This document shows positions 3,891-39,799 of a DNA stretch of 64,000 nt, piece after piece. This DNA comes from Actinotalea soli. GTDB lineage: Bacteria > Actinomycetota > Actinomycetes > Actinomycetales > Cellulomonadaceae. Position 1 is the stretch's first letter; each line of letters begins with the position of its first letter. The position numbers were made by a program, and so were the translations under genes. The notes beneath the pieces were generated by a model. It was not told where the DNA came from, did no database searches, and saw nothing but the letters and a program-made list of their open reading frames with translations. The stretch spans positions 310,001 to 374,000 of the forward strand of contig NZ_JAGEMK010000002.1 of the NCBI RefSeq assembly GCF_017565425.1, written 5' to 3'.

Positions 3891-4411
3891 ACCCCGGCCC
3901 CGAGGTGCCGGCCGAGGCCAGCCCCAGCCCCAGCCCTAGCCCTGAGCCCGAGCAGCGCTGGGTGGCCCTGATCCGCGGCGACGACCGCCCGGGCACCCTC
4001 ACCGCCCTGAGCAGCGTCTTCTCCACCCGCGGCGTCAGCTTCACGTCCCTGGCGACCGGGGGCGTGGACGGGGACGTCGGCAGCATCGCGGTGACCTTCT
4101 GCGCGACCAGCCGGCGGGCGCGGCTCCTCGCCCGCACCGTCGAACGCCTCTCGGTGGTCCGTTCGGTGGTCGCGCGCCCCGTCGAGGACCCGCAGGTCCG
4201 TGCCGCCGGCGTGGTCCGCATGCCCGACGGCGTGCCGTTCTCCCCGGCCCCCGCGGCCGACCTCGAGTGGTCGGGGGACGCCTCGGCCGGGCGCCCCGTG
4301 CTCGTCGAAGGACCGTTCACCCAGGTGACCACCGTCGTCGAGCGGGCCCGCCGCGAGGGGGCCGTCATGACCGCGGTGATGGTCCTCGGGATCGCCGGGG
4401 TCGACCGCTGA
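3887..4411 (+). CDS. ACT-like domain protein (acetolactate synthase small-subunit-like)
   Basis: 174 aa. After a Ser/Pro-rich N-terminus the segment WVALIRGDDRPGTLTALSSVFSTRGVSFTSLATG resembles the ACT regulatory fold (beta-strand, DxPGxL turn, helix) as in IlvN. The C-terminal half (about residues 105-174) has no obvious catalytic motif. ACT domains bind amino acids and control partner enzymes; here the partner could be the dehydrogenase it overlaps by ATGA. No ilvB-like large subunit is in the window, so it is not called ilvN. Confidence 0.65.
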   Translation: MNPGPEVPAEASPSPSPSPEPEQRWVALIRGDDRPGTLTALSSVFSTRGVSFTSLATGGVDGDVGSIAVTFCATSRRARLLARTVERLSVVRSVVARPVEDPQVRAAGVVRMPDGVPFSPAPAADLEWSGDASAGRPVLVEGPFTQVTTVVERARREGAVMTAVMVLGIAGVDR

Positions 4412-5520: not shown

Positions 5521-6708
5521 CTACGCGCCCCGCACCCAGTACGGAACCCATCCCGGGTCCGTGTGCCGCACGAGGGCCTCGAGGTAGAAGTAGTCGCCCC
5601 ACAGGCTGCCCTCGTCGACGCCGATGCCCTTGGGGGCGTCGTAGACCGAGTGCAGCAGGAGGGCGTCGCTCTCGACCCCCTCGGCGGCCGGGGTGTAGCC
5701 GGCAACCAGGGCGCGCAGCATGTCCAGGCCCGCGGTCGCGTACCGCTCGCGTCGGGCGGGGTCGGTCTCGACGGCGGCGAGGTGGTGCAGCCCGCAGGCG
5801 GCGATCGCGGCGGCCGAGCTGTCCCGTGGGGCGTCGCTGCCGTCGGTGTAGACGAGGTCCCAGTAGGGCACACCGTCCTGCGGCAGGTCGGCGAGGAAGC
5901 GGTCGGCGCAGCGTTCGGCCGAGCGCAGCAGGGCGGGGTCCCCGGTGGCCTGGTGGTTGAGGGCGAAGCCGTAGATCCCCCAGGCCTGGCCCCGCGCCCA
6001 GCACGAGTCGTCCCCCGCCCCCTGCTCGGTGGCCCCGTACAGGGGCGCGCCGGTCACGGGGTCCCAGTAGAAGGTGTGGAAGGTGGTGCCGTCGGGCCGC
6101 AGCACGTGCTCGCTCAGCTGGGCCGTGTGCCGGCGGACGGCGTCGGGGTAGCGCTCCTGCCCGGTCTGCTCACCGGCCCAGGTCAGCAGCGGCATGTTCA
6201 TCAGGCTGTCGACGATGGTGCGGCCGCGCTGGGCCGGGTCGGAGACGTCCCCCCAGGCCTGGAGGATCCCCGCGGGCTCGAGGAACCTGACCATGAGGTG
6301 GTCGGCCGCGGCGAGGGCCGCCTGCCGGGCCTGCTCGTCCCCGGTGAGCCGCCACGGAGCCACACCGGACAACGTGTACAGGAAGCCCAGGTCATGGGTG
6401 TGCAGGTCCTCGCCCTGCTCGACGCGCCGGGCGAAGTCCACGACGTGCTCGCGGCCCGCCGCCCGGAAGGCGTCCTCGCCGGTCAGCTCGTAGGCCAGCC
6501 ACTGCGTCCCGGGCCAGAAGCTCGTGGTCCAGCCCCGGTTCGCGCCCTCGGCGAAGCGGTCGGTCGCGGGCCGCGGCAGGTACCGGCCGTCGGTGGTGGT
6601 GTCGTCGGGGTAGCGGCGGCCGAAGGCGGCGATGTTCCGGCGGACGGTCGCGATCGCGGCGTCCACGGCAGGGGCGAGCTCGGTCGCGAGCCCGGTGGCG
6701 AGGGTCAT
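5521..6708 (-). CDS. GH88 unsaturated glucuronyl hydrolase
   Basis: 395 aa, typical for GH88. These enzymes remove the 4,5-unsaturated uronic acid left at the non-reducing end by polysaccharide lyases, acting by hydration of the enol ether. Family landmarks are the tryptophan-rich segment RGWTTSFWPGTQWL, the Asp in THDLGF and the second Asp in TIVDSLMNMPL, the pair known to be catalytic in UGL. No signal peptide, so it acts in the cytoplasm on imported oligosaccharides. An in-frame TTG lies one codon upstream; the ATG is chosen. Last gene of the transporter operon. Confidence 0.9.
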   Translation of the reverse strand: MTLATGLATELAPAVDAAIATVRRNIAAFGRRYPDDTTTDGRYLPRPATDRFAEGANRGWTTSFWPGTQWLAYELTGEDAFRAAGREHVVDFARRVEQGEDLHTHDLGFLYTLSGVAPWRLTGDEQARQAALAAADHLMVRFLEPAGILQAWGDVSDPAQRGRTIVDSLMNMPLLTWAGEQTGQERYPDAVRRHTAQLSEHVLRPDGTTFHTFYWDPVTGAPLYGATEQGAGDDSCWARGQAWGIYGFALNHQATGDPALLRSAERCADRFLADLPQDGVPYWDLVYTDGSDAPRDSSAAAIAACGLHHLAAVETDPARRERYATAGLDMLRALVAGYTPAAEGVESDALLLHSVYDAPKGIGVDEGSLWGDYFYLEALVRHTDPGWVPYWVRGA

Positions 6709-23484: not shown

Positions 23485-23614
23485 GTGAGACGTCGAACAG
23501 GCCCTGACGTTGGACGGAGGTGCGATTCTGCGGGCGCCCTTGTGCTGAGCGGCGCTGCCCCTGGCCCGTGCTTCGGGCCTATAGTCGACCCCACAATCGA
23601 ACACGCTGCTCGAA

Positions 23615-23855
23615 CCACGGCGGGAGAGTCCTTCCCGCACGTCGGCAAGGCGCCGAAGGAGCAACCCTCCCCGGGAATCTCTCAGGCCCACGTACCGCCG
23701 TGGCGAAGCAACTCTGGAAAGCGGCCGTGCCCTCGGGTGCGGCTCACCGACGGTGCAAGTCGGCGCGCCCCGGTGCCTCACGAGGCACACGGCGGACCGG
23801 CAAAACTCTCAGGTCGCCTGCCTCCGGGCCGGTGGATGACAGAGCGGGGAGGTCC
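23615..23855 (+). promoter_or_regulatory. Tandem glycine riboswitch
   Basis: Two glycine aptamers in a row. Aptamer I: P1 CCACGGCGG (23615-23623) pairs perfectly with CCGCCGTGG (23695-23703) and encloses the conserved GGGAGAGTCC, GGCGCCGAAGGAGCAA and CCGGGAATCTCTCAGG blocks. Aptamer II (about 23711-23855) has ACTCTGGAAAG, CACCGACGG.GCAAG, CTCTCAGG and GACAGAG. Two aptamers allow ligand communication. A TATAGT (23580-23585) is the likely -10. Glycine binding is expected to switch on gcvPTH. A 14-bp palindrome CCGGCGCGCGCCGG (23866-23879) just before the gcvP ribosome binding site is the probable expression platform. Confidence 0.95.
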
Positions 23856-26752: not shown

Positions 26753-26756
<4 letters not shown>

Positions 26757-27913
26757 CGACCACCACCGACGACGCCGTCGAGCTCGGTGAGGAGCAGCCG
26801 CGCCGCTCCCCGCTGCACGAGGAGCACCTGGCCCTCGGCGCCACGCTGACCCCCTTCGCGGGATGGCAGATGCCGCTGCGCTACACCTCGGACCTCACCG
26901 AGCACCACGCGGTGCGCTCCGCGGCCGGGCTGTTCGACCTGTCCCACATGGGCGAGATCCGCGTGGCAGGGCCCGGTGCCGGGCGTGCCCTGGACCGCGC
27001 CCTGGTCGGCACCCTCTCCTCCCTCGCGGTGGGCCGGGCCCGCTACACGATGCTGTGCGCCCCCGACGGCGGGGTGCTGGACGACCTGGTCGTGTACCGC
27101 ACCGGGCCCGAGGGCTACCTCGTCGTGGCGAACGCCTCGAACGTCGAGACGGTCCTGGCCGAGCTGCAGGAGCGGTGCAGCGACGTCGAGGTGACCGACG
27201 AGTCCGCCACCACGGCCCTGGTGGCCGTCCAGGGGCCGGCCGCCGCAGGGATCCTCGAGAGGCTCATCAGCGAGGACGGCCGCAGCGGGGTGAGCGGCCT
27301 GCGCTACTACGCGTGCACCGCCGCCCTGGTGGCCGGGGTCGAGGCGATCGTCGCGCGCACCGGGTACACGGGGGAGGACGGCTTCGAGCTCTACGTCAGT
27401 CCCGAGGACGCGCCGACCCTGTGGCGGGCTCTGCTCGAGACCGGTGCCGAGGACGGGCTGGTGCCCGCGGGGTTGGCCTGCCGCGACAGCCTGCGCCTCG
27501 AGGCGGGCATGCCCCTCTACGGCAACGAGCTCGACACCACCACCACCCCGCACGACGCCGGGATGGGACGCGTCGTCCGCCTGGACAAGGTCGACGAGGA
27601 CGGCGAGCCGCTGGACTTCGTCGGTCGCGGCCCGCTCGAGGCCCGGGCCGGGTCGCAGCCCTCGCGGGTGCTGGTCGGCCTGCAGGGACTCGGCCGTCGG
27701 GCCGCGCGGCACGGCTACGCGGTGCTCGTGCCGGACGGCCCCGTCGTCGGCGAGGTCACCTCGGGGGCGCCGTCCCCGACCCTCGGCTACCCGATCGCCA
27801 TGGCGTACGTGACCCCCGAGGTCAGCGGCGAGGGCACCGAGCTCGCCGTCGAGGTGCGCGGCCGGCCCGAGCCCGCCCGCGTCGTCCCCCTGCCCTTCTA
27901 CCGCCGTCCCTGA
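26753..27913 (+). CDS. gcvT: Glycine cleavage system T-protein (aminomethyltransferase)
   Basis: 386 aa. It releases ammonia from the aminomethyl-lipoyl arm and transfers the methylene to tetrahydrofolate. Landmarks: the N-terminal catalytic-region segment [24 protein letters not shown], and the folate-binding segment [14 protein letters not shown] with [17 protein letters not shown]. Overlaps gcvP; followed after 17 bp by a 50-bp palindromic element and then gcvH. Confidence 0.97.
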
Positions 27914-27930: not shown

Positions 27931-27980
27931 CTCGTGTCAGAACCTCGGGTGCCTGGGGCACCACGAGCTTCTGACACGAG
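27931..27980 (+). repeat. 50-bp palindromic element, copy A (gcvT-gcvH spacer)
   Basis: Ends are perfect 10-bp inverted repeats CTCGTGTCAG and CTGACACGAG, with further internal pairing towards a loop CCTGGGGCA. Exactly the same length and termini recur at 37689-37738 and 38163-38212 inside hrpA. In the polycistronic gcv mRNA it would form a stable hairpin between gcvT and gcvH. One frame of this copy could encode LVSEPRVPGAPRASDTR, the same type of peptide it contributes in hrpA. Confidence 0.85.
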
Positions 27981-28000: not shown

Positions 28001-28372
28001 GTGAGCAACGTGCCTGCTGAGCTGAAGTACACCGCCGAGCACGAGTGGGTCCGTGAGGGCACCCCCGTCACCATCGGCATCACCGAGAACGCCGCCGAGG
28101 CCCTCGGCGAGCTGGTCTTCATCGAGCTGCCTGCCGTGGGCGACCGCATCACCGCGGGGACCGTGTGCGGCGAGGTCGAGTCGACCAAGTCCGTCTCGGA
28201 GATCTACGCCCCCGTCACCGGCACCGTGGCCGAGGTCAACCAGGCCGTGGTCGACGAGCCCCAGCTGGTCAACAACGAGCCCTACGCGGCCGGCTGGCTG
28301 CTGCGGGTCGACGTCGAGGACGCCACGGGGCTGCTCAGCGCCGAGGAGTACTCGGCGCTGCTCGACGCCTGA
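28001..28372 (+). CDS. gcvH: Glycine cleavage system H-protein
   Basis: 123 aa, usual length. The lipoylation lysine is in CGEVESTKSVSEIYAP. The N-terminus (ELKYTAEHEWV) and C-terminus (NNEPYAAGWLLRVD) match the family. It shuttles the aminomethyl group between P, T and L proteins. GTG start with GAGGAG upstream. No gcvL/lpd gene is nearby. A GC palindrome CCCCGCGCGGGG at 28380-28391 follows the stop and may end transcription. Confidence 0.97.
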   Translation: MSNVPAELKYTAEHEWVREGTPVTIGITENAAEALGELVFIELPAVGDRITAGTVCGEVESTKSVSEIYAPVTGTVAEVNQAVVDEPQLVNNEPYAAGWLLRVDVEDATGLLSAEEYSALLDA

Positions 28373-35290: not shown

Positions 35291-38200
35291 TCACACCCCG
35301 AGCGCGGTCCGGATCCGCTTCGCGCTGACCGGCTGCGCGGTCCCCATCTGCTGGGCGAACAGGCTCACCCGGAGCTCCTCGAGCAGCCAGCGGACCTCGA
35401 CCAGGGTCGCCTCGCGGCCCGGGTCGGGCGCACCGGCGCGGGCGGCGGACACGGCGTCCTCGTAGGCCTGCGTGAGCTCGTGCACCTGCCAGGCCAGGCC
35501 CTCGTCGCGGGACGGGTTCTCGGCGGCCTTGGTCAGGCGGTGCCGCGCGGCCCGCAGGTAGCGGGCCAGGTGCGGCAGGCGTGGGGCCCCGGCCTCGCTG
35601 ACGAACCCGTCGTGCACCAGTCCGGCCAGCTGGTCGCGCACGTCGGTCACGGTGTTGAGCAGGGCCAGGCTGCTCGAGCCCCGCACCTCGCCGTCGAGCT
35701 CGCGCGCTGCCCCGAGCACGACGGCGACGTCCGCGGCGACCTGGGCCGTGCGGTCCTCGAGGCGGTCGCGCAGCCGGTCGCGGAGCCGCGCGTACGTCGT
35801 GGCGTCGCGGACGGTCGTCGGGGCGTCGGTCTCGGCGACCAGGGCGGCGACGGCGGCGCGCTGCAGGTCGGTGACCAGCGCGTCGGTGCTCGGGTAGGGG
35901 CTCGCGGCGAGGGTCAGGGACTGGGTGCCCGACCAGCGGCTCGTGATCCGCGCCGTGGGCAGGGCGAGCTCGGTGAGCAGCAGCTCGACCACCGCCGCCG
36001 GGTGCTGGCGGGCCTGCTGAGCGGCGTCGGCCAGCACCCGCAGGGCCACGGGCCGGGGACCCTGAGCAGGCTTCTTGCCCTTGCCGACCGCTGTCGGGGC
36101 CTTCTCGACCACGAGCGACGGGTACGCCTCGACCGTGTGCCCGCCGGCCCGCGTGCTGACCACGGCCGGGAGGGCGCCGTCGGGCAGGCCTGTCGGCCAG
36201 GTGCGCAGCGCGGCCTGCTCGGGGAGGGCCGGCGCGGCCGGTGGCGCGGCCGGGGCGCTCGGCCCAGCCGCGCCGCCGTCGGGCGCGGTGCTCGCCGTGG
36301 CCCCGCCAGAACGGTCGACGGCGGTGCCCCGGGCCCCGCCCGCCTCGGCCACGGCGGCCCGGACCGCGTCGCGCACGGCCGAGCTGACGGCCCGCTGGGT
36401 CTGGGCGGCGAGGCGGCGCTGCAGGGCCAGGAGGTTGGTGCCCTCGTCGACCATCGAGGTCGAGGCGCCGCGGGCCTCGGTGACCCGGTAGGTCATGCGC
36501 AGGTGGGCGGGGAGGCGCTCGTCGTCCCAGGCGTCCTCGGGGACCTCGACGTCGCGCAGGGCGCGGACCGCCTGGGTGAAGGCCTCGCGGAAGCTGGGCG
36601 CCATGTCCGCCGCGCGCACCACGTCGGCCCAGGTGGGCATGTGCTGGGCGATCCAGGCGGTGACCTCGCGGGCGACGTCGGGGGCGGGGACCAGCTGCAC
36701 GCGCACGGGCTTGGGCAGGGAGCGGATGGTCGCGGTGACGAGCTCCTCGCGCAGGCCGGGCACCAGCCAGTCGAAGCCCTCGGGGCGCACCCGGTTGAGC
36801 ACGCCGACGGGGACGTGGACGGTCACGCCGTCGGCCTCGGTGCCGGGCTGGAACTGGTAGGTCAGCGGCAGCTCGAGGTCGCCCTGGGGCCAGGTGCTGG
36901 GGAACTGGTGCGGGTCGGCCGCGGCGGCGTGGGCCTCGTCGTCGGCCACGAGCATGGCCAGGGTGAAGGTCAGCAGGTCCGGCTCGTGGCGTCGGGCGCC
37001 CTTCCACCAGGTGTCGAAGTGGCGGGCGGAGACGACGTCGGCGGGGACGCGCTCGTCGTAGAAGGCGAACAGGACGTCGTCGTCGACCACCAGGCCGCGG
37101 CGTCGGGTGCGGTGCTCGAGCTGCTCGGCCTCGTCGAGCAGGGCCCGGTTGTCGTGGAAGAAGGCGTGGTGGGTGCTCCACTCGCCCTGCACCAGGGCGT
37201 GGCGGATGAACAGCTCGCGGGCGTGCTCGGCGTCGACCTTCGCGTACAGCACGCGGCGCTGGGCGACGATCGGCACCCCGTAGAGCAGGACCTTCTCCGA
37301 GGCCATGGCCGCGCCCTGCTTGGTGGACCACGCGGGCTCGGAGTAGGTGCGCTTGACCAGGTGCCCCGCGAGCTCCTCGGCCCACTCGGGCTGGATGCGC
37401 GCGGCGTCCCGGCCCCACAGCCGCGAGGTCTCGACCAGCTCCCCGGCCATGATCCAGGCGGGGGGCTTCTTGGACAGCGGCGAGCCGGGGAAGATCGCGA
37501 ACCGGGCGCCGCGGGCCCCGAGGTACTCGTTGCGGGACTGCTTGCGTGCGGGCTTGCCGCCCTTGGCCTGCGGCGCCCCGCCCCGCGCCCCGACGCGGAC
37601 CTCGGTGACCTCCTGCATCCCGATCTGGCTCAGCAGCCCGGCGAGCAGCGACTGGTGGATCCGGTCCGCGTCCCACGCCAACCTCAAGCTCGTGTCAGAA
37701 GCCTGAGTACCTGGGGCACCCTGAGCCTCTGACACGAGGTTCGAGGTGCGGGCCGGGGGGCGCAGGGTGATGCCCAGGGGCTTGGCCATCTCCTTGAGCT
37801 GGGTGACGACGTCCTGCCACTCGCGCAGGCGCAGGTAGTTGAGGTACTCGGCCTTGCACAGGCGCCGGAACGCGCTGCCGGACAGCTCGCGTTGCTGCTC
37901 GCGGACGTAGTTCCAGAGGTTGAGGTAGGTGAGGAAGTCCGACGTCGGGTCGGCGAACCTCGCGTGGGACTGGTCGGCCTGGGCGCGCAGCTCGGCCGGG
38001 CGCTCCCGCGGGTCCTGGATGGACAGGGCCGCCGCGATGATCATGACCTCGCGTGCCACGTCACGCCGTCCGCCCTCGACGATCATCCGCGCCAGCCGCG
38101 GGTCCATCGGCAGCAGCGCGAGCGCCCGCCCCACCTCCGTCAACCTCGTGTCAGGTCCGGATCTCGTGTCAGAACCTGAGGTTGCCCCAGGTATCCCAGG

Positions 38201-39799
38201 TTCTGACACGAGATTGGTGGGGCGGGGGCGGGTCTCGAGGGCGCCGAGCTCGGTGAGGAGCTGGACGCCGTCGCGCACGGCGCGGGTGTCGGGGGGCTCG
38301 ACGAAGGGGAACCGCGCGACGTCGTCGGGGCTGCCCGCCACGCCCACCGCGACCATCTGCAGGATCACCGAGGCCAGCGAGGTGCGCAGGATCTCGGGCT
38401 CGGTGAACTCGGGCCGCGAGCCGAAGTCCTCCTCGGAGTACAGCCGGATCGCGATGCCGTCGGCCACGCGCCCGCAGCGGCCCGAGCGCTGGTTGGCGCT
38501 GGCCTGGCTGATCGGCTCGATGGGCAGCCGCTGGACCTTGGTGGCCTTGGAGAACCGCGAGATGCGCGCGGTCCCGGGGTCGACGACGTAGCGGACCCCG
38601 GGGACGGTCAGCGAGGTCTCGGCGACGTTGGTCGCGAGCACCACCCGCCGGGTCGAGTGCGCCTCGAAGACGCGGTGCTGCTCGGCCGAGGACAACCGCG
38701 AGTACAGCGGCACGATCTCGACCGACCGCGGCGACACGGCCCGGCCCGAGCCGACCGCGCGTTCGCCCAGGTGCCCGCGCAGCGCGTCCTCGGCGTCACG
38801 GATCTCCCGCTCCCCGGAGAGGAACACGAGGACGTCCCCCGGTCCCTCGACGGACAGCTCGTCGACGGCCTCGCAGATCGCCGTCATGAGGTCCCGCTCC
38901 TCGCCCTTGGCCTTCGCCGGGGCGTCGGGGTCGACGTCGGGGGAGAGCGGGCGGTAGCGGATCTCGACGGGGAAGGTGCGCCCGGTGACCTCGACCACGG
39001 GGGCCGGGACGCCGTCGGGGTGCTCGTCGGTGGGCGGGCCGGCGAAGTGCTGGGCGAAGCGCTCGGAGTCGATGGTCGCCGAGGTGATGACGACCTTGAG
39101 GTCGGGGCGCTTCGGCAGCAGCTGGGTGAGGTACCCGAGGATGAAGTCGATGTTGAGGGAGCGCTCGTGGGCCTCGTCGATGATCAGGGTGTCGTAGGCC
39201 CACAGCTCGGGGTCACGCTGGATCTGCGCGAGCAGGATGCCGTCGGTCATGACCTTGACGAGGGTGTCCTCCGAGGACTGGTCGGTGAACCGCACCTGGT
39301 ACCCGACCACCGAGCCCAGGGCCCCGGCCCCGCCGGTGATCTCCTCGCTGATGCGCTCGGCGACGGTGCGGGCGGCGATCCGGCGGGGCTGGGTGTGGCC
39401 GATCTGCCCGTCGCGGCCTCGGCCCAGGTCGAGCAGGATCTTGGGCAGCTGGGTGGTCTTCCCGGAGCCGGTCTCGCCCGCGACGATGACGACCTGGTGG
39501 TCGCGGATGGCCTCGGCGATCTCCTCGCGCCGGGCCGAGACGGGCAGCTGCTCGGGGTAGGTGATCGGCGGCAGGTCGACGGCGTGACGTGCTTCCGCCC
39601 GGCGGGCGCGACGCTCGGCCTCACGGCGCGGATCCGGTGCGCGGCTGCCCCGCTCGGCCCCGCGCTGGCGGTTGGCGTTCTCCGGCTGGTCCGGCCCACG
39701 GCCCTGACCCGCGCCCCGGGTGCCGCCCCGGCCGCGCCCGCGCGAGGACCGCCGACGTCGGTCCGACGACGGCTGCTGCTCAGGGGGCCCAGGAGTCAC
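35291..39799 (-). CDS. hrpA: ATP-dependent RNA helicase HrpA with two inserted palindromic elements
   Basis: 1502 aa, unusually long for HrpA (about 1300). N-terminal Arg/Gly-rich tail (1-70), then DEAH helicase motifs: GETGSGKTTQ (about 108-117), DEAHERS (about 207), SAT (SATIDSERF), RSGRCGR (motif VI), then helicase-associated domains, and a C-terminal DUF3418 region ending with KRIRTALGV. Two 50-bp palindromes are read in frame, adding about 24 residues near 529-552 (LVSEPGIPGATSGSDTRSGP) and about 18 near 687-705 (LVSEAQGAPGTQASDTS); both lie in surface-type linkers. An Ala/Pro-rich insert (near residue 1180-1210) is also present. GTG start. Confidence 0.92.
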   Translation of the reverse strand: MTPGPPEQQPSSDRRRRSSRGRGRGGTRGAGQGRGPDQPENANRQRGAERGSRAPDPRREAERRARRAEARHAVDLPPITYPEQLPVSARREEIAEAIRDHQVVIVAGETGSGKTTQLPKILLDLGRGRDGQIGHTQPRRIAARTVAERISEEITGGAGALGSVVGYQVRFTDQSSEDTLVKVMTDGILLAQIQRDPELWAYDTLIIDEAHERSLNIDFILGYLTQLLPKRPDLKVVITSATIDSERFAQHFAGPPTDEHPDGVPAPVVEVTGRTFPVEIRYRPLSPDVDPDAPAKAKGEERDLMTAICEAVDELSVEGPGDVLVFLSGEREIRDAEDALRGHLGERAVGSGRAVSPRSVEIVPLYSRLSSAEQHRVFEAHSTRRVVLATNVAETSLTVPGVRYVVDPGTARISRFSKATKVQRLPIEPISQASANQRSGRCGRVADGIAIRLYSEEDFGSRPEFTEPEILRTSLASVILQMVAVGVAGSPDDVARFPFVEPPDTRAVRDGVQLLTELGALETRPRPTNLVSEPGIPGATSGSDTRSGPDTRLTEVGRALALLPMDPRLARMIVEGGRRDVAREVMIIAAALSIQDPRERPAELRAQADQSHARFADPTSDFLTYLNLWNYVREQQRELSGSAFRRLCKAEYLNYLRLREWQDVVTQLKEMAKPLGITLRPPARTSNLVSEAQGAPGTQASDTSLRLAWDADRIHQSLLAGLLSQIGMQEVTEVRVGARGGAPQAKGGKPARKQSRNEYLGARGARFAIFPGSPLSKKPPAWIMAGELVETSRLWGRDAARIQPEWAEELAGHLVKRTYSEPAWSTKQGAAMASEKVLLYGVPIVAQRRVLYAKVDAEHARELFIRHALVQGEWSTHHAFFHDNRALLDEAEQLEHRTRRRGLVVDDDVLFAFYDERVPADVVSARHFDTWWKGARRHEPDLLTFTLAMLVADDEAHAAAADPHQFPSTWPQGDLELPLTYQFQPGTEADGVTVHVPVGVLNRVRPEGFDWLVPGLREELVTATIRSLPKPVRVQLVPAPDVAREVTAWIAQHMPTWADVVRAADMAPSFREAFTQAVRALRDVEVPEDAWDDERLPAHLRMTYRVTEARGASTSMVDEGTNLLALQRRLAAQTQRAVSSAVRDAVRAAVAEAGGARGTAVDRSGGATASTAPDGGAAGPSAPAAPPAAPALPEQAALRTWPTGLPDGALPAVVSTRAGGHTVEAYPSLVVEKAPTAVGKGKKPAQGPRPVALRVLADAAQQARQHPAAVVELLLTELALPTARITSRWSGTQSLTLAASPYPSTDALVTDLQRAAVAALVAETDAPTTVRDATTYARLRDRLRDRLEDRTAQVAADVAVVLGAARELDGEVRGSSSLALLNTVTDVRDQLAGLVHDGFVSEAGAPRLPHLARYLRAARHRLTKAAENPSRDEGLAWQVHELTQAYEDAVSAARAGAPDPGREATLVEVRWLLEELRVSLFAQQMGTAQPVSAKRIRTALGV
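37689..37738 (+). repeat. 50-bp palindromic element, copy B (inside hrpA)
   Basis: CTCGTGTCAG ... CTGACACGAG, same length and termini as copy A, loop CCTGGGGCA in the + orientation. It lies between LRPPARTS and LRLAWDADRIHQ of HrpA and keeps the reading frame, encoding NLVSEAQGAPGTQASDTS on the minus strand. Confidence 0.85.
38145..38212 (-). repeat. 50-bp palindromic element, copy C, plus an extra half-site (inside hrpA)
   Basis: A full 50-bp copy at 38163-38212, with loop CCTGGGGCA on the minus strand (opposite to B), plus a separate half-site CTCGTGTCAG at 38145-38154. Together they encode NLVSEPGIPGATSGSDTRSG then PDTR between the HrpA segments ALETRPRP and LTEVGRALALLPMDPR. The extra half may be a relic of a second, nested insertion or of a duplication that restored the frame. 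Confidence 0.85.

Follow-up and report, generated by a model that had tools for sequence, protein, structure and literature searches.

The genome of Actinotalea soli harbors a family of 50-bp palindromic elements that mostly lie directly behind genes and are occasionally read in frame as part of conserved proteins, among them the RNA helicase HrpA. We consider it moderately probable that they form a lineage-specific family of small, REP-like hairpins, which would have spread via a putative end-recognizing factor and would survive either behind stop codons or in phase within genes.

The Element and Its Copies in the Window

The window, i.e. the whole stretch of 64,000 nt that was analyzed, contains three exact matches to CTCGTGTCAG-N30-CTGACACGAG: copy A (27931-27980), copy B (37689-37738) and copy C (38163-38212), none of them assigned to a strand. 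No match appeared when the window was shuffled 100 times (chance expectation: 0). The equal 50-bp length and the 10-bp terminal repeats described for these copies in the earlier note are confirmed. Copy A is found between gcvT (glycine cleavage T protein, 26753..27913, + strand) and a second ORF (28001..28372, + strand), which we take, from its position, to be gcvH. The element begins 17 bp downstream of the gcvT stop (which ends at 27913) and ends 20 bp upstream of the start of the gcvH-type ORF (about 28001).

Copies B and C are located within hrpA (35291..39799, - strand), an ATP-dependent RNA helicase of 1502 amino acids that was recognized by its open frame and its Pfam domains (DEAD, Helicase_C, HA2_C, OB and DUF3418). 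Both copies keep this frame and encode peptides of the same style, as had been claimed: copy B is read as NLVSEAQGAPGTQASDTS and copy C as NLVSEPGIPGATSGSDTR. The peptide of copy B, LVSEAQGAPGTQASDT, stands directly ahead of the OB-fold domain and that of copy C, LVSEPGIPGATSGSDT, directly ahead of HA2_C. Next to copy C, an extra left element end (38145-38154) together with 8 bp makes up an 18-bp in-frame tandem duplication (38145..38162, no strand assigned; peptide ...GSDTRSGPDTR...), which the sister species possesses too. Copies B and C form a 59-nt inverted repeat (80%), so their loops do have the opposite orientation that the earlier note reported; since both are near-palindromic, this carries little meaning.

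As RNA, the window copies fold with -24.9 to -43.6 kcal/mol, varying with the copy and the strand, and the stem comprises about 20 bp. Copy A reaches -40.1 kcal/mol (z -7.3). The fold of copy B is weak on the + strand (z -1.9) and strong on the - strand (z -6.0), and the remaining window folds have z values from -5.9 to -8.0. In an alignment of 46 copies, base 11 of each arm (A / T) is invariant as well; the first ten arm bases were fixed there by the search pattern. The underlying unit is a 44-bp palindrome, GTGTCAGA-N28-TCTGACAC, which is extended to 50 bp in A. soli. An Rfam search at the window copies returned no family at the gathering score. Elsewhere in the window, a glycine riboswitch match is present upstream of the gcv genes (23611-23707) and a match to the actinobacterial Ms_IGR-5 sRNA at 187-398.

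Census and Placement in the Genome

The A. soli genome (3.63 Mb, 32 contigs) contains 63 exact matches to the 50-bp pattern per strand, one of which, at copy C, overlaps and spans 68 bp. By combining a covariance model with a regular expression applied to the retrieved loci, 72 copies were found, representing 68 distinct sequences; two partial model matches (C22:261186 and C1:92624) are excluded from this number. The model search scored the best 150 of 2903 candidates. Degenerate copies will have been missed here and in the searches of the sister species and the family, because only the best candidates were scored or stricter filters applied. All 72 copies found measure 50 bp, although 46-54 bp were allowed in the search. 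Perfect 10-bp ends (CTCGTGTCAG / CTGACACGAG) are present in 62 copies, and the other ten have a single end mismatch.

The copies are arranged in 47 clusters (25 single copies, 19 pairs and three triples). Close neighbors (n=24) are separated by 11 bp in 20 cases, by 12 bp in three and by 22 bp in one, which corresponds to start-to-start spacings of 61, 62 and 72 bp. In locus L046, two element pairs (4000-4110 and 5789-5899) have one identical unit and an identical 11-bp spacer, the other unit differing by 1 base, which suggests a local duplication of the entire pair. All ten end mismatches occur among the 47 clustered copies and none among the 25 single ones (p 0.012). A relaxed constraint through redundancy in tandem copies was considered and dropped, as single copies of the sister species also carry end changes.

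With genes called by codon usage rather than taken from annotation (here and in the loci of other genera), 41 of the 47 clusters are intergenic and six lie in genes. The intergenic clusters are flanked by codirectional genes in 23 cases, by convergent genes in 16 and by divergent genes in only two. In 39 of the 41, the element edge is 1-76 bp away from a stop codon (median: 9 bp); the nearest start codon, where one exists, has a median distance of 71 bp. Most of the 39 genes whose stop lies closest to an element belong to ordinary families or to no known family. A family scan of these 39 and of the five host genes (44 in total) revealed no transposase or recombinase. The left flanks of the elements are C-rich and the right flanks G-rich. 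The idea that the elements had inserted into the loops of older terminator hairpins was rejected, since the flanks pair no better than after random re-pairing (1823 of 5000 shuffles were at least as good).

Copies Inside Genes

The genome-wide search for further copies, a test proposed in the earlier note, yielded 72 copies, eight of them inside genes and these all in one phase. They are distributed over five genes, encoding HrpA (two copies), the 2-oxoacid dehydrogenase E2 (three, between the lipoyl and the E3-binding domains), Mfd (one), a MaoC-domain protein (one) and an Fe-S/CCG protein (one). All eight are read in phase 0 and give a peptide of the type (L)VSE or ASD...SDT. The same phase is used by 15 of 15 in-gene copies (eight genes) in four further genomes, so that the sampled total of 23 copies in 13 genes and five genomes shows one phase throughout. 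Phases 0, 1 and 2 are open on 118, 139 and 0 of the 144 strands in A. soli, and on 101, 162 and 0 of 168 elsewhere; a TGA stop is always present in one phase of the three. As the unused phase is open more often than the used one, stop codons do not dictate the choice of phase.

Relatives were aligned for HrpA (19 congeners) and for E2 (two genomes), and the other hosts were named by domain. In HrpA, neither site has such residues in the 17 congeners that are free of the repeat, as the earlier note had expected of clean insertions; both segments are present in Actinotalea sp. C106, the sister species. In this alignment the two sites are loops of variable length. A solved HrpA structure shows a gap at site C when aligned to the A. 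soli protein, and the alignment stops before site B. The two inserts probably extend the linkers that precede HA2_C and OB and leave catalysis unchanged. In one congener without the element (G017, locus L068), the HrpA loop of copy C contains a tandem peptide repeat of its own (GGTESSDRA-like), likewise in frame.

Comparison with the Sister Species

Between A. soli and Actinotalea sp. C106, 32 orthologous copies could be compared. Differences affect 10 of 704 sites (1.4%) in the ends and 140 of 896 (15.6%) in the interiors, an approximately 11-fold contrast (Fisher 3e-26), although the orthologous loci were picked by the presence of elements and this ascertainment may partly lower the end divergence. 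The 10-bp flanks differ at 145 of 561 sites (25.8%), with 79 further gap columns. The end differences are divided over five in-gene pairs (3/110) and 27 intergenic pairs (7/594). The sister search scored the best 150 of 2397 candidates, and one sister copy measures 51 bp. None of the ten end mismatches in A. soli is matched on the opposite arm; the ends thus look kept as sequence, not as pairs.

The interior behaves differently from the ends. Its substitutions between the two species change the folding energy by +0.04 kcal/mol on average, compared to +5.58 kcal/mol for random substitutions, and 15 of 31 fall in the best 5%. Interior pairing also exceeds that of shuffled interiors, both on one strand (18.9 vs 14.3 bases) and on the better strand (20.6 vs 15.7), the shuffles being treated like the real copies in each case. 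Moreover, 46 of the 72 copies are more stable than all 20 of their own shuffles. When columns were compared in a fixed register, covariation was no higher than in the shuffles, and it is therefore the folding-energy tests that carry the claim of structure.

Locus L034 contains an identical pair in A. soli and a differing pair in the sister species. This points to conversion between copies, and such conversion may contribute to the uniform ends. Given ends about 11 times less divergent than the interior, the element looks like DNA under constraint, or homogenized by conversion, rather than decaying selfish DNA. Of the earlier proposal of a selfish or domesticated repeat that creates protein, the dispersal and the added protein segments hold.

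Gains, Losses and the gcvT-gcvH Site

In A. soli, gcvT and gcvH are separated by 90 bp that include copy A; in the sister species the interval measures 32 bp and shows no remnant of the element. The interval was readable in 16 other congeners, all of which lack the element there (G003 and G012 have no gcvT match and stand outside this comparison). This is the one clean presence/absence site, and no clear target-site duplication was seen at this occupied/empty pair. Several further gains or losses separate the sister species, namely pairs versus singles in 61-bp steps and deletion remnants. For 22 of 23 element-bearing loci of the sister a matching A. soli element locus exists; within these loci, one sister copy (L123:3001) occupies a site that is empty in A. 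soli.

Eight indels of more than 250 bp were recorded between the two species. Six have a breakpoint at an element or within 84 bp of one (three of these being bounded by elements on both sides) and two lie elsewhere; the compared loci were centered on elements, which biases the count toward such breakpoints. Gene-size pieces with elements at both ends that are missing in the other sister species are L060:3112-4146, L053:3051-4225 and L122:885-2471.

Kin in the Cellulomonadaceae and Beyond

The exact 50-bp type occurs in three of 221 family genomes and is missing in 17 of 19 congeners. With the covariance model (best 27 candidates per genome, stricter filters), kin were detected in 37 of 221 genomes and 11 of 25 genera, some of the weaker matches measuring 49 or 51 bp. 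The core GTGTCAGA-N{15,45}-TCTGACAC occurs in 26 of 221 genomes and seven of 25 genera, with up to 167 copies. In all core matches listed the spacer is N28, except for one N30, and among these matches the interiors are genus-specific and alike within a genome. As a control, the reversed core pattern matched in G127 and the reversed 50-bp pattern in G127 and G131.

In a phylum sample of 396 genomes, the core with N26..34 was found in one, A. soli's own. A scan of a species collection for TCGTGTCAGA-N27..29, from which A. soli's own records were excluded, gave Actinotalea sp. C106, Oerskovia turbata and two contigs of a MAG labeled "Streptomycetales", all with N28. The two MAG copies (L163:4055-4102 and L170:3192-3239) agree in their ends and in a core of likewise 44 bp, and either lie outside the family or are misbinned. 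A phage origin was rejected, as no exact CGTGTCAGA-N26..30-TCTGACACG was found in viral contigs.

The loci examined in other genera are the first-listed places; they cover a part of each genome and were not sampled at random. With a single mismatch tolerated at either end, they contain 18 copies in G192, 21 in G150, 14 in G179 and 31 in G168 and G172 together; the exact whole-genome core counts are 167, 28, 17 and 20 plus 24. In these five genomes, 46 of 57 intergenic clusters have a stop codon within 38 bp and six are divergent, and some stand farther from a stop (e.g. 208, 590, 649 and 1701 bp). None of the 18 fetched copies of G192 is in a gene. The neighbor spacings are 61, 122, 61, 95, 72, 72 and 72 bp in G179, 63, 141, 63 and 63 bp in G150, and 74, 63, 63, 63, 133 and 62 bp in G168/G172.

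In the HrpA of genus g18 five copies are present: the sites of copies C and B have two each and the fifth lies elsewhere. The E2 of genus g8 has two between the lipoyl and E3-binding domains. As the HrpA copies are missing in 17 of 19 Actinotalea, separate insertions into the same loops in Actinotalea and g18 would be the simplest reading; common ancestry followed by many losses is a possible alternative. CCG-domain proteins carry copies in both g1 and g15, a likeness at the domain level only. Loci L228 and L234, both with an NHL domain, may be orthologues. In genus g15, to which O. turbata belongs, two copies make up the C-terminal tail of a CCG-domain protein (L222:2001-2129); the element can also end a protein.

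Proposed Explanation and Alternatives

In the explanation that we favor, the two parts of the element evolve differently: the ends would be kept as sequence and the 28-bp interior as a foldable stem, at a near-fixed length. Non-autonomous copies would have spread within each lineage, acted on by the putative end-recognizing factor. The intergenic copies that survive would be those directly behind stop codons, where the hairpin in the 3' end of the mRNA may affect its stability or its 3' boundary. The surviving in-gene copies would be those that lie in flexible linkers and in the single phase yielding a soluble V-S-E...S-D-T peptide. A bolder version, which we offer tentatively and consider less likely than not, is an undescribed system of this actinobacterial family in which the putative factor reads the 8-bp ends, measures the 44-bp folded length and spreads or maintains the hairpins behind genes. 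The same hairpins would then be written repeatedly, always in the one phase, into matching loops of the same proteins (HrpA in two genera, the linker of E2 in two), a convergent route to new protein linkers.

The uncompensated mismatches in ends kept as sequence would suit a DNA target to which a host protein binds sequence-specifically (acting in chromosome structure, repair or replication), with the ends as a double binding site at a fixed distance and the tandems as arrays. The near-constant length across genera and the regular neighbor spacing (61 bp in 20 of 24 in A. soli) point the same way. This reading is rather improbable, however: it leaves the foldable interior and the placement 3' of stops unexplained, the exact type is missing in 17 of 19 congeners, and the spacings do not all fall on one helical phase. 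Still less probable are intrinsic transcription terminators spread by duplication. Strong hairpins close behind stops, with C-rich left and G-rich right flanks, resemble terminators, but the stem has no T-run after it, and copies occur in coding genes and between gcvT and gcvH, 20 bp ahead of a start. A terminator, moreover, is not known to require an invariant sequence at the base of its stem.

We regard as quite unlikely that the elements are integron attC-like cassette recombination sites, i.e. folded sites behind each stop between which gene-size pieces move. The six of eight large indels that break at or within 84 bp of elements, three of them bounded on both sides, speak for such sites; two indels lie away from elements in loci centered on elements, and homologous recombination between repeats would account for the indels too. 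Furthermore, the neighbors mostly belong to ordinary chromosomal families (e.g. purD, D-Tyr-tRNA deacylase, Ppx/GppA and EF-G), and the attC core motif was not seen upon inspection by eye. That the HrpA segments are ancient conserved sequence, palindromic by accident, is scarcely credible. Both segments are indeed present in the sister species, but they are absent from the 17 other congeners, a solved HrpA is gapped at site C and unaligned at site B, and the same element recurs in 45 other clusters.

Significance

Palindromes that create protein segments have been described from a few lineages, among them Rickettsia (PMC2229807) and REP-rich bacteria (PMC3733652). In the Cellulomonadaceae, a high-GC actinobacterial family, many genomes are available, including a sister pair that shares 32 orthologous copies, and the elements unusually combine sequence-fixed ends, a structure-fixed interior and a near-fixed length. 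Two questions thereby become testable. The first is what handles REP-like hairpins where RAYT is missing. The second, which arises because separate genera carry insertions in the same loops, is whether in-frame hairpins are merely tolerated or are useful linkers.

Comparison with Known Systems

A literature search by title and abstract start, with subscription journals mostly outside its coverage, recognized no account of this hairpin family. The word "actinobacteria" is absent from the main text of PMC3733652. That paper describes the GTAG-tagged REPs as dispersed palindromes that occur singly or in pairs, mostly in uni- or convergent settings close to 3' ends; in the two genomes diagrammed they lie less than 20 bp from 3' ends, and some are found in genes, including those of RNA helicases and repair proteins. 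The A. soli element shares this placement (39 of 41 intergenic clusters by a stop, two of 41 divergent). It belongs to a different lineage, however, and is longer (44-50 bp compared to 20-40 bp). Instead of a one-sided GTAG tetranucleotide it has symmetric ends without such a tag, the same perfect ends on both sides in 62 of 72 copies and one mismatch in ten. RAYT (Y1_Tnp, PF01797) was detected in two of 221 family genomes (G073 as well as G126), both of them free of elements. With no Y1_Tnp in the carrier genomes in this family-wide search, RAYT was rejected as mobilizer.

The CGTC-tagged REPs (including RPE-4, RPE-6 and dRS3) are similar in that no dedicated transposase is known for them, in their intragenic copies and in their 3' placement (PMC3733652). 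These are defined there by a one-sided CGTC tag and an 8-9 bp stem, whereas the A. soli element has neither this tag nor a CCA tail, a longer stem (about 20 bp) and the same conserved sequence at both ends. As for intrinsic terminators, a G-rich right flank takes the place of the T-run behind the stem. The bacterial MITEs (Correia, ERIC and RUP) resemble it in their terminal inverted repeats, hairpin RNA and in-frame fusions, but are given as 100-200 bp long in PMC2229807; the A. soli element is shorter, and its interior varies between copies, the ends hardly. No clear duplication was seen at the single clean occupied/empty pair, and no autonomous partner among the 44 genes scanned, Y1_Tnp being the transposase family searched for genome-wide.

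The Rickettsia palindromic elements (RPEs) are long inverted-repeat palindromes that are found in frame in conserved proteins (PMC2229807), and the earlier note had likened the element to them. The in-frame palindromic insertion into a conserved protein, missing in relatives, stands (HrpA, 19 congeners). The RPE definition (105-146 bp, Rickettsia) does not fit, as all 72 copies found measure 50 bp and come from Actinotalea, a high-GC actinobacterium; moreover, most copies are intergenic behind stops, and all sampled in-gene copies share one phase. The element works like a REP and like an RPE and is, by the tests run, a member of neither family.
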